Origin: Agarophyton chilense
Taxonomy: Eukaryota > Rhodophyta > Florideophyceae > Gracilariales > Gracilariaceae
DNA length: 64,000 nucleotides
Direction of reading: 5' to 3'
NCBI GenBank assembly: GCA_030374765.1
Contig: JARGXX010000039.1
Location: forward strand, 1 to 64,000
Positions 28,947-41,667 of the stretch are shown piece by piece (position 1 is the stretch's first letter; every line of letters begins with the position of its first letter). The position numbers and the translations under genes were made by a program. The notes under the pieces are model-generated. The model searched no databases. It was not told where the DNA came from and was given only the letters and a program-made list of their open reading frames with translations.

Positions 28947-29126
28947 AATATTAGAATAATAATTTATTTGATTTTTATATATTTTAAAATTAATATATAA
29001 TGTATCAGTATTTTTATACTAACCTTAAGTATTGTTATACTTTACTTTTTTTTGTAAAAAATTTACATTTCTTGATTTTATCTTAAAAAATCATATATTA
29101 TTGTTGAACATAAAATATTTTTTAGC

Positions 29127-29155
29127 TTGTTTTTTGGTACAATAAGTTTTATAAG
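29127..29155 (+). promoter_or_regulatory. Candidate promoter for petN-petM
   Basis: TTGTTT (29127-29132), 17-nt spacer, TATAAG (29150-29155), about 57 nt before petN. Both hexamers are partial matches (4/6 and 5/6). Confidence 0.4.
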
Positions 29156-29211
29156 ATGAATTGCAGTATAAAAATCATTTAATTCTTTATATGATTAAAG
29201 GAGTGAAAACA

Positions 29212-29304
29212 ATGTTAGATATAATTAGTCTAGGCTGGGGATCATTATTAGCAATATTTAGTTTTTCAATTGCACTAGTTGTTTGGGGTAGAAATGGTTT
29301 CTAG
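29212..29304 (+). CDS. petN: Cytochrome b6f complex subunit PetN
   Basis: A 30-residue single-helix subunit. The [29 protein letters not shown] pattern, ending in VVWGRNG, is diagnostic of PetN. An in-frame ATG lies 21 nt upstream, but AAGGAG (29198-29203) stands between the two with an 8-nt spacer to the second, so 29212 is the start. It is followed by petM 53 nt later. Confidence 0.96.
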
Positions 29305-29357
29305 TTTTAATATAATTAATTATTAATTTACTATTTATATACTTATGGAGTAAGGTA

Positions 29358-29456
29358 GTGGGGGGAGAAATTTTAATTGTAAGTACTGTAAGTTTCACAC
29401 TAATATTATTAGGTTTGTTTTTAGGTTTTGTCTTGTTGAAAGTTCAAGGCGAATAA
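29358..29456 (+). CDS. petM: Cytochrome b6f complex subunit PetM (GTG start)
   Basis: A 32-residue single-helix subunit (PetM). The protein begins (M)GGEIL and ends VLLKVQGE, the conserved ends of the family, with a hydrophobic helix between. The start codon is GTG: no in-frame ATG exists between the upstream stop (29313-29315) and this codon, and GGAG (29347-29350) lies 7 nt before it. Together with petN, petG and petA it supplies b6f subunits. Confidence 0.93.
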   Translation: MGGEILIVSTVSFTLILLGLFLGFVLLKVQGE

Positions 29457-29594
29457 CTGTTCATGATTTTTTATTATAACAAGTTAATTTTTATTTAAAT
29501 TTAATTATTTTTAATATTTTTTAATAAAAGATTCTTAATAAGAATATGATAATCATATTCTTATTATTTATATTTTTTTATTCTAAATCACTAT

Positions 29595-29848: not shown

Positions 29849-30352
29849 ATGCCTATTTCTAAAAAAATATGTCCTGTACCTTTCGACCAACAGCCCTTAA
29901 ATGAATATTTATCTTTAAAATCTTCCTGGTTTTTCTCTTGGTCTACTTTATCTTTAGATAAGTATTTTATTAAACTATTGACTATTTTTATGTTTATTTC
30001 TATTGCATTTATGCCTTTATTACGATATATAGTTTCAAAAACTTATAGTATATGGGGATTAGTCATATTAAATATATTAATAGTTAATACTATCTTTTTA
30101 TTAATTTTTATACGTTTATATCTAGGGTGGTCTTATGTTCTTAAAAGACTAATTAGTGCGACTACTTTTTATGAAGAATCAGGATGGTATGACGGTCAGT
30201 TATGGGTTAAAAGTCCAGAGGTTTTAATAAAAGATCGTCTTGTTGGATTTTATGAGGTTACGCCATTTTTATCAAGGGCAAAATATGGCATATTAATAAG
30301 TATAATTTTGATACTTCTTGAAAAAGTAGTTTATTCGTTGCTTTTAAGATAA
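29849..30352 (+). CDS. ycf36: Ycf36, conserved membrane protein of unknown function
   Basis: A 167-residue protein of the Ycf36 / DUF1230 family found in cyanobacteria and red-lineage plastids. It begins CPVPFDQQPLNEYLSLKSSWFFSW, a family hallmark, then has two membrane helices (about 45-65 and 72-92), the RLYLGWSYVLKRLISATTFYEESGWYDGQ motif and a C-terminal helix. Function is not known to me. It lies between secG and trnfM in the same direction. Confidence 0.95.
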   Translation: MPISKKICPVPFDQQPLNEYLSLKSSWFFSWSTLSLDKYFIKLLTIFMFISIAFMPLLRYIVSKTYSIWGLVILNILIVNTIFLLIFIRLYLGWSYVLKRLISATTFYEESGWYDGQLWVKSPEVLIKDRLVGFYEVTPFLSRAKYGILISIILILLEKVVYSLLLR

Positions 30353-30378
30353 TAAATATATTATTATAATTGTTTAAT

Positions 30379-30382
30379 CGCG

Positions 30383-30427
<45 letters not shown>

Positions 30428-30452
30428 AATGGTTCAAATCCATTCTCCGCTA
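30379..30452 (+). tRNA. trnfM-CAU: Initiator tRNA-Met (CAU)
   Basis: A 74-nt tRNA. The anticodon loop CTCATAA gives CAU. Initiator features are visible: position 1 C is not paired with position 72 (T), and the anticodon stem has three consecutive G:C pairs (CGGG / CCCG). The T-arm contains GTTCAAATC. CCA is not encoded. Confidence 0.96.
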
Positions 30453-30574
30453 TTATATTGTTTAAGTATTGAATATGTTATTCATACTAATTTATGCTAT
30501 TATGTTGTTTTGTTACTGTTATTTTATATAATATAGAAAATGCTAAATGTTATAACAAGAAGTGTAGTATTAAC

Positions 30575-31174
30575 ATGATAACAAATAATAATGTTTTTAG
30601 AGTTGGTCAACAGGCGCCAAATTTTTCTGCCACTGCTGTGTATGATCAGGAGTTTAAGAAAATAACACTATCTGATTACTTGGGTAAGTATGTGATACTA
30701 CTCTTTTATCCTTTAGATTTTACATTTGTTTGTCCAACTGAGATCACTGCTTTCAGTGATTCATATAAAGAGATTCAGGGTCTAAATACAGAAGTTTTAG
30801 GTATATCTGTTGATAGTGAATATTCACATTTAGCATGGTTGCAAATGGAAAGAGATATTGGAGGCTTAGGAGACCTTAATTATCCTTTAGTTTCTGATTT
30901 AACAAAAGAGATTAGTGCTTCATATAATGTTTTAACAGAAGAAGGTAAAGCACTAAGAGGTTTATTTATTGTTGATCAGCGAGGAATTATACAATATTCT
31001 TTAGTTAATAATTTAGATTTTGGCCGTAGCGTTAGTGAAACTTTAAGAACACTTAAAGCTATTCAATATGTACAATCTCACCCGGATGAAGTTTGTCCAG
31101 CAAATTGGCAGCCAGGACAAGCTACTATAATTAATAGTCCTCAAAAATCGAAAAATTATTTTCAGTCTGTATAG
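30575..31174 (+). CDS. bas1: 2-Cys peroxiredoxin (thioredoxin peroxidase)
   Basis: Typical 2-Cys peroxiredoxin of 199 residues (Bas1 / Ycf42), reducing H2O2 and lipid peroxides in the stroma. The peroxidatic cysteine is C53 in [13 protein letters not shown] and the resolving cysteine is C174 in EVCPANW. The frame is open 27 codons further upstream, but those codons do not look like this family, so [17 protein letters not shown] is taken as the start. It is followed by the dead pbsA gene. Confidence 0.96.
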
Positions 31175-31267
31175 ATCAATATAATAATTTTCTCTTTAAT
31201 ATATTTAATTTAACTATGTGTTCTAAATACTCTATTCTTTATTAAGAATTTATCAAGAATAATAAGT

Positions 31268-31915
31268 ATATCTAGTAATTTAACGTAACAATTCCGTAAA
31301 AGAACAACAAAAGCACATAGTATGGCTGAAAATTTCAGTTTTGTTAAATCATTGTTGAGCCGTGTATTTGATATAAAATCCTATTGCAGATTAATCGCTA
31401 ATTTGTTTTTTATTTATAGTGCCCTTAAATAAGCAATAGAAGCAAATAAGGATTATTATATGGTTCTATCAATAGGGTTTCCAGAACTAAATCGTAAGCT
31501 TAGCTTATAAAAAGATCTTGCATATTACTATGACCCTAATTGGGAAGCGTAGATTTATGATGTTTTTAGCAATAAAAACTTATGTTAATAAAATTAGTAA
31601 TATTGGTTTGAGTCAAACTGGGTTGTTAATATCTCATTCTCATAATAGAGATATAGTGGATTTATCAGAAGTATGGATATTGAAATGAATTGTACAAACG
31701 GTTATGAATTTATATAGTAGTGATAGAACTATATTCTAGAATTTTCTAGATATCAAAAATGATAAAAAGTTTAAAACTATATATCATCAAGTATTGAAAA
31801 ATGCTCCTATGGATCGAATCTAAACAGAAATAATTGTTCCTGAAGCTAATATTGTATTTAATCTTAATTTAAGATGATTGGTATATTACTTCTAAGTGCA
31901 ATTACAAGTTTATGA
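31268..31915 (+). pseudogene. pbsA: Decayed heme oxygenase gene (pbsA pseudogene)
   Basis: Broken remnant of plastid heme oxygenase, which opens heme to biliverdin for phycobilin synthesis. Conserved blocks read through in order: TTKAHSMAENFSFVKSLL, with the heme-ligand His, then LIANLFFIYSAL, FPELNRKLSL, DLAYYYDPNW and, in a second frame, TYVNKISNIG, DIVDLSEVWILK, NFLDIKNDKKF and PEANIVFNLNL. The first frame has stops at TAA 31286, TAA 31430, TAA 31508 and TAG 31550. A shift occurs at about 31550-31580, and the second frame has TGA, TAG and TAA stops. The presumed start is ATA. The glycine-rich GDLSGG helix motif has decayed. It occupies most of the 912-nt bas1-rpl35 gap; the flanks hold no other gene. 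Confidence 0.9.
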
Positions 31916-32086
31916 AAAAATTTATTAAAAATACAACATTATTTCTATTTTTGTATTTTGATCTTTATAGTATAGACATCTTGTCTAAGATCTCATTTAT
32001 TTTTATACTGATAAATGACTTATTTAGTGATTAATATAATTTATTCAACTTGTATGTTTTGACTACTTAATTCAGTTATAAAATTT

Positions 32087-32290
32087 ATGTGTAAAATAAA
32101 AACCTCTAAATCAATAGTTAAAAGATTTAAATTTAAATCTAAAAATAAAATTTTACGACGCATGGCTGGTCGCAGCCATTTACTACAAAAAAAATCGTCC
32201 AAGAGAAAACAGAAGTTAAGAAAAGTTATTAATTTAAAAAAAGTTGATATATCAAGCTGGAAATTTAAAATACCTCACATACATTATTAA
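32087..32290 (+). CDS. rpl35: Large ribosomal subunit protein L35
   Basis: L35 of 67 residues, very basic. It has the pattern KTSKSIVKRFKFKSKNKILRR with RSHLLQKKSSKRKQKLRK. It precedes rpl20 by 14 nt, the conserved bacterial rpmI-rplT order; infC, their usual bacterial partner, is absent here. Confidence 0.95.
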   Translation: MCKIKTSKSIVKRFKFKSKNKILRRMAGRSHLLQKKSSKRKQKLRKVINLKKVDISSWKFKIPHIHY

Positions 32291-32304
32291 GATAATATAC
32301 TTAT

Positions 32305-32661
32305 ATGACAAGAGTTAAAAGAGGCAATGTTGCTCGTAAAAGACGAAAAAAAATTTTAAAACTTGCTAAAGGTTTTAGAGGTTCTCATGCAATTTTATTC
32401 CGTACAGCTAAACAGCAAGTACTAAAAGCTCTAAAATATTCTTACATAGGTAGAAAAAATAGAAAACGCAATTACAGAAGTCTTTGGATAGTACGTATTA
32501 ATGCTGCAGTGAGACCTTATGGGATTACATATAACGAGTTTATAAAACAATTAAAAAAAAGTAGTATTGCTTTAAATCGAAAAATGTTGTCTCAATTAGC
32601 TATTCTAGATCATTCTGTCTTCAAAACTATTTTAAATTCTTGTACATCTGAATTTAAGTGA
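32305..32661 (+). CDS. rpl20: Large ribosomal subunit protein L20
   Basis: L20 of 118 residues, an early 50S assembly protein. It begins [26 protein letters not shown] and has the [25 protein letters not shown] core, then a C-terminal helical domain. Start 14 nt after rpl35, so the two are cotranscribed. Confidence 0.97.
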
Positions 32662-32822
32662 TAATCTAAAATATTTTTTAATTTGCAAGCTGATAATTAA
32701 ACACGTTTTTAATTGTTCTTAAAAAGTCTTAAAAAGAAAATAGTTTATCTTTTTTGATTCAATATATTAAATTACTCATATTAAGATTTGATTTCAATTA
32801 CTTTAAAATATAAACATCTTAT

Positions 32823-41181: not shown

Positions 41182-41667
41182 ATGAGTATTATTACTAAAT
41201 CAATTGTTAATGCAGATGCAGAAGCTAGATATTTAAGTCCAGGAGAATTAGACAGAATTAAAAGTTTTGTTTTATCTGGTCAAAGACGCTTAAGGATAGC
41301 ACAAATTTTAACAGACAACCGTGAACTAATTGTAAAGCAAGGTGGTCAACAGTTATTTCAGAAGAGGCCAGATGTGGTCTCGCCTGGCGGTAATGCTTAC
41401 GGGGAAGAAATGACTGCAACATGTTTGAGGGATTTAGATTATTATTTAAGATTAGTGACTTACGGTATAGTAGCTGGTGATGTAACTCCAATAGAAGAAA
41501 TAGGTTTAGTGGGAGTTAAAGAAATGTACAACTCTCTAGGTACTCCTATCTCTGGAGTTGCTGAGGGTGTACGTTCCATGAAGAATGTTGCTTGTTCTTT
41601 GCTTGCTGGAGAAGATTCTGCAGAGGCGGGTTTTTATTTTGATTATACATTAGGCGCAATGCAGTAA
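41182..41667 (+). CDS. apcA: Allophycocyanin alpha subunit
   Basis: ApcA of 161 residues, forming trimers with ApcB in the phycobilisome core. The phycocyanobilin site is C81 in [16 protein letters not shown]. The ending LGAMQ is typical. The frame is open 10 codons further upstream, but the start at 41182 ([22 protein letters not shown]) has GGAG nine nt before it and fits the family. apcB follows after 59 nt. Confidence 0.98.

Follow-up and report, generated by a model that had tools for sequence, protein, structure and literature searches.

Remnant of the plastid heme oxygenase gene pbsA between bas1 and rpl35 in a red alga

Genes and features of the bas1-rpl35 locus

The analyzed window (64,000 nt in full) is located on contig C39 (227,691 bases) of an assembly of 79.8 Mb in 135 contigs. 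This contig is the plastid genome read round past its own start: the bases of the window recur 185,684 bases later, and the plastid genome is 185,684 bp long. Within the window, bas1 is followed by rpl35 and rpl20, all three open over their full length, with a gap of 912 nt (31175-32086) between the first two. The preliminary description of this DNA had noted that the gap lacks a long open frame, and indeed no ORF of at least 60 aa was found in it, the longest having 56 codons. The gene order bas1-pbsA-rpl35-rpl20 is listed in PMC5217408, and the heme oxygenase remnant identified in the gap sits at the equivalent place, as expected for a descendant of plastid PbsA. The features of the locus are as follows; those within the pseudogene were placed by alignment, and residue counts refer to the 80 cyanobacterial rows of the profile introduced below.

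30575..31174, forward strand: bas1, peroxiredoxin gene, intact, upstream of the gap (AhpC-TSA, E 1.9e-40; its stop codon ends at 31174)
31268..31874, forward strand: body of the pbsA pseudogene, 202 codons in two frames, heme oxygenase columns 1-201 (Pfam and frameshift-tolerant alignment)
31268..31270, forward strand: ATA at the start methionine of the profile (consensus Met1)
31286..31288, forward strand: in-frame stop TAA, column 7, mainly Thr (71/80)
31310..31333, forward strand: heme-ligand block KAHSMAEN (His17), intact
31430..31432, forward strand: in-frame stop TAA, column 55, Glu in 78/80
31508..31510, forward strand: in-frame stop TAA, column 81, Glu in 80/80
31541..31547, forward strand: +1 frameshift before 31545, place approximate
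31656..31676, forward strand: decayed distal block, VDLSEVW as against GDLSGGQ in functional enzymes
31686..31688, forward strand: in-frame stop TGA, column 140, Lys in 45/80 and Gly in 34/80
31713..31715, forward strand: one extra codon relative to the cyanobacterial profile
31737..31739, forward strand: in-frame stop TAG, column 156, Tyr in 80/80
31821..31823, forward strand: in-frame stop TAA, column 184, Thr in 65/80
32087..32290, forward strand: rpl35, intact, downstream of the gap (Ribosomal_L35p, E 2e-12)
32305..32661, forward strand: rpl20, intact (Ribosomal_L20, E 1.6e-43)

Homology to heme oxygenases and extent of decay

Two translated pieces of the interval, with X at the stops, match the Pfam family Heme_oxygenase, for which the cut-off is 23 bits. 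The first piece covers positions 2-94 of the 204 in the profile (E 5.4e-25, 88.9 bits), and the second, in another forward frame, covers positions 99-200 (E 2.2e-17, 64 bits); a piece of the remaining forward frame matched no Pfam family. The best solved structure for both pieces is the HO-1 chain 1we1, which we take to be Synechocystis HO-1. A profile of 240 columns was built from cyanobacterial HO1 proteins, for which the 80 best of 358 relatives found were taken, and the frameshift-tolerant alignment of the interval to it is collinear over codons 31268 to 31872 and columns 1-201, with 88 of the 202 positions carrying the consensus residue. The score of 362.0 compares with a maximum of 42.3 in 500 dinucleotide shuffles, a maximum of 36.5 among the 270 scores of 135 other window chunks on both strands, and 28.1 for the reverse strand of the interval. 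The last 39 profile columns (past 201) found no alignment downstream of 31874, and a further in-frame TGA at 31875 lies just after the aligned body; the end at 31915 given for the feature in the preliminary description is therefore unsupported by homology. A working plastid PbsA would also carry a transmembrane stretch at its C-terminus, on the side where nothing of the remnant aligned. In a tree with 20 of the 80 cyanobacterial rows, the remnant falls among 19 of these 20 HO1 sequences (support 95/89), with a branch of 2.19 that is too long for its exact placement to be sure; the branch of the nuclear heme oxygenase described below is longer still (flagged as 10).

These results bear out the core of the preliminary description, which had read the interval as a dead pbsA between bas1 and rpl35, with heme oxygenase blocks in order over two frames, at least six stop codons, one frameshift, a start codon turned into ATA, KAHSMAEN intact and GDLSGG decayed. 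The frameshift-tolerant alignment that it had put forward as a check scored far above the shuffles, and the lack of a significant translated match to heme oxygenases, which it had named as one finding that would speak against it, did not occur. Domain-long homology, disablements, loss of conserved residues and gene order give good support to the dead gene. Its six stops are scattered over the domain, and together with the ATA and the frameshift they leave no open frame with a start codon. The further claim that several stops replace Glu or Gln codons holds for Glu at two of the six (31430 and 31508) and fails for Gln, none of the six columns being mainly Gln; this residue occurs at the stop columns of 31286 and 31821 in one of five distant functional rows each. 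The cyanobacterial columns only weaken the claim, since the red algal ancestor may have differed from these rows.

With respect to the residues of a working enzyme, H17, A20, E21, and N22 of the proximal block are retained, and the distal GDLSGGQ is lost. In the latter block (31656-31676), where GGQ became EVW, most of nine adjacent bases are apparently altered with the flanks retained, which may reflect clustered changes or a small rearrangement confined to this block. For a broader count, 42 test columns were chosen in which at least 97% of the cyanobacterial rows agree and from which none of five distant functional rows departs; the latter comprise three cyanophage enzymes, Synechocystis HO2, and a human sequence put together from two entries. 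Of these columns the pseudogene retains 28 and has lost 14, several of them in the GDLSGGQ region and stops not counted: G12, F29, G32, E54, G89, Y125, T126, Y128, L129, G134, G135, Q136, G152, and A195, a few of which are mild changes (F29 to L, L129 to I). When each functional row was left out in turn, it retained 42 columns of the respective set, the five sets having 42, 44, 46, 46, and 49 columns, and the pseudogene retained 28, 30, 30, 31, and 31 on the same five sets. The GC content of the pseudogene at codon positions 1, 2, and 3 (31.7, 28.7, and 18.8%) is intermediate at the first two positions between that of coding sequence (43.6, 35.6, and 17.9% for 45 window ORFs taken as genes) and that of spacers (17.5% over 4,233 bases).

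The extent of decay was estimated by two clocks. Simulated neutral decay from the six stops gave medians of 0.16-0.24 substitutions per site for six model settings, with 5% limits down to 0.06 and 95% limits up to 0.56 over these settings; a first simulation run had given 0.20 (0.08-0.48). The conserved-residue clock (28 of 42) gave 0.16 substitutions per site (0.10-0.26), a value that may be slightly high because the clock presumes an ancestor with all 42 residues. The joint estimate is 0.16-0.18, implying a load of about a hundred substitutions in 606 sites. Under these models both clocks point to about 0.16-0.2 neutral substitutions per site, as would be expected for a gene that is part-decayed and not freshly dead. 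The earlier wording of a fairly recent loss should be taken with caution, since the estimate indicates incomplete decay and is not convertible to years. Relaxation of GC content was also considered as a clock and dropped, since its outcome hinges on the GC content assumed for the ancestor (0.265 or about 0.343).

Substitutions make up nearly all of the lesions. A single frameshift and no more than one codon indel are a small number for neutral decay, and this is a counterpoint to the reading that we prefer, a dead gene decaying neutrally. The small number of indels relative to the inferred number of substitutions would also suit a very improbable alternative, according to which the interval lost its coding role and its length is preserved because it is transcribed as a spacer or leader of rpl35-rpl20; against it, no Rfam family was found in the interval at the gathering threshold.

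Heme oxygenases elsewhere in the assembly

A six-frame Pfam search of the assembly gave five heme oxygenase matches, namely two pieces for each of the two plastid copies and one at C13:623716-624225. The same loci were recovered with a cyanobacterial HO1 query (E 2e-5 for the C13 match), and a DNA search with the interval gave the two plastid copies and nothing else. No intact or other cyanobacterial-type pbsA was found in the 79.8 Mb by the six-frame and DNA searches, which intron-split genes could escape; in this assembly the gene is accordingly a unitary pseudogene, disabled at its original locus and with no other copy of its type found. No animal-type HMOX2 was found in the assembly either, and introns could hide one.

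The C13 match contains no stops and belongs to an ORF of 356 codons from the first GTG, with ATGs at codons 25 and 84. From residues 131-135 on, the ORF matches the plant chloroplastic HO-1 chains 7eqh (E 1.4e-62) and 7cka (E 1.8e-60), so that an N-terminal extension of about 130 residues precedes the matched part, or about 50 if the start is the ATG at codon 84. The neighboring ORFs encode a TPT/EamA-type transporter and an FHA domain, and a third is without a match. By these sequence matches, C13 carries a predicted nuclear heme oxygenase gene of the HMOX1 (HY1) type in the sense of PMC5940233.

That pbsA itself was transferred to the nucleus and the copy left behind in the plastid died afterwards is most improbable. 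Such transfer is a frequent fate of plastid genes; however, the sole nuclear match is of HMOX1 type, with only 25% identity to Synechocystis HO1 (query residues 42-172) as against the E-value of 1.4e-62 to the plant chloroplastic enzyme, and the interval DNA is matched nowhere else than in the two plastid copies (intron-split or unassembled genes could escape). The C13 enzyme is a probable stand-in for pbsA and not its descendant.

Phycobiliprotein genes are present on the plastid contig, and two Fe_bilin_red loci (bilin reductases) are found outside it, on C88 and C25. Since these genes persist, biliverdin is still required, and the nuclear HMOX1 likely supplies it in place of pbsA.

Origin of the remnant and comparison with published losses

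We interpret the locus, with a probability of about 0.87, as a unitary plastid pbsA pseudogene undergoing neutral decay, the loss of which was tolerated owing to an imported nuclear enzyme of the HMOX1/HY1 type. The plastid pbsA, at its usual place between bas1 and rpl35, no longer has its start or its frame, one in three of its most conserved residues is gone, and the dead gene would be decaying by neutral mutation. The nuclear enzyme, presumably imported into the plastid, would make biliverdin for the phycobilisomes. A more specific and rather doubtful proposal is that the nuclear HMOX1 is the single heme oxygenase left, serving both bilin synthesis and iron recycling, while the plastid copy decays nearly only by substitution; if true, this would imply that indels are very rare in the plastid or that the spacer between bas1 and rpl35 is constrained in length.

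The possibility that the alga has an intact gene and that errors of sequencing or assembly produced the stops and the frameshift has very little in its favor. The contig does contain an inconsistency, a 43-base difference in apcA between its two copies, and the two assembled copies of the locus do not amount to independent reads. Nevertheless, assembly error is unlikely because these copies are identical around the locus (3001/3001 bases) and bas1, rpl35, and rpl20 are fully open. Moreover, errors of long reads are usually indels, whereas most of the changes behind the six stops and the 14 lost conserved residues are substitutions, and pbsA is missing from G. chilensis in independent data according to PMC5217408. 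Still less credible is a gene kept functional by RNA editing, stop readthrough, and frameshifting: the collinear alignment has almost no indels, as though the frame were watched, but all three stop codons would have to be recoded at six sites, the frameshift bypassed and translation begun at a non-standard codon. Stops aside, 14 of the 42 invariant columns are changed as well.

As a decayed plastid gene, the remnant can be compared with several published cases. The plastid PbsA of red algae is the same cyanobacterial-type heme oxygenase (PMC5940233) encoded at the same bas1-rpl35 place (PMC5217408); unlike the working gene, the remnant has six stops, a frameshift, no start codon, and a decayed distal block. 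The same gene is reported as missing from G. chilensis and G. firma (Ng et al. 2017, PMC5217408, citing Lee et al. 2016, PMC4814812, for G. chilensis), and an ORF of G. firma with remote similarity to pbsA (E 0.7) is mentioned there, which by analogy may be a similar remnant. Whereas those reports in PMC5217408 are of absence, here the remnant is aligned over the length of the domain and its lesions are listed. In Nemaliales, the plastid genes ycf21, ycf35, and ycf46 are pseudogenes with similar amino acid sequence and premature stops, as in the present case, but pbsA is described there, for four genera, as absent and not as a pseudogene (PMC5057469); in contrast to these pseudogenes, the dead gene here has a known function, and the same assembly contains a nuclear enzyme of its activity class. 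Among the titles and abstract beginnings listed in the open-licence literature, no description of a Gracilaria pbsA pseudogene was found.

The loss of pbsA is thus already in print, and the present analysis adds the remnant with its lesions, how far it has decayed, and the nuclear enzyme encoded in the same assembly. It is a case of ordinary gene decay caught part-way: a pbsA published as absent can be in the course of decay in place, with a chloroplast-type enzyme encoded in the nuclear part of the same assembly. According to PMC5940233, 12 of 16 freshwater species have lost pbsA and 100 of 116 marine species retain it. Should the alga be marine, as G. chilensis is, the remnant would add an exception to the view expressed there that pbsA is retained by marine red algae because their water is poor in iron; in Rhodella violacea, plastid pbsA responds to iron (PMC5940233). 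Comparing the lesions across Gracilaria could help to place the loss in time and to gauge the rate of neutral mutation in the plastid. Searches for relatives gave 17 pattern matches and no relative in a scan of viral contigs for bas1; in a plasmid collection searched with 30300-32700, the best 20 of 422 records comprised 18 tRNA, one rplT, and one bas1 region, none of them on the remnant.

Several further observations concern the assembly. In the second copy of apcA, near the contig end, 43 bases (window 41587-41629) are missing at G000:C39:227270-227271, with an exact match over 1887 bases before and 421 after; this is either an assembly slip or evidence of two plastid forms. The plastid carries intact ORFs for leuC (439 aa, C39:146542-147861) and leuD (189 aa, C39:147875-148444), a pair of bacterial type that also occurs in Gracilaria plastids. 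At C39:74132 there is a group II intron match, with tRNA-Gly and tRNA-Thr the only tRNAs found nearby. The G. chilensis plastid genome, as described in PMC4814812 and PMC5217408, is 185,637 bp long and contains leuC-leuD and a group II intron, which sits in a tRNA-Met gene. The alga is probably a Gracilaria close to G. chilensis, whose published data it resembles without equalling them.

Equal-scoring group II intron matches were obtained at C132:7260-7344 and twice on C133 (6934-7018 and 34177-34261, 27,243 bases apart); C133 therefore resembles a second circular molecule read past its start, which may be mitochondrial. A stretch of 567 bases in the window (29001-29567), located between acsF and the small gene that follows it, contains no ORF of at least 70 aa. 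In the PDB, phycoerythrin alpha is matched best by 1eyx and phycocyanin beta by 2bv8, which we take to be G. chilensis structures; both show visible differences, and 1eyx ranks third among the PDB matches of phycoerythrin beta.
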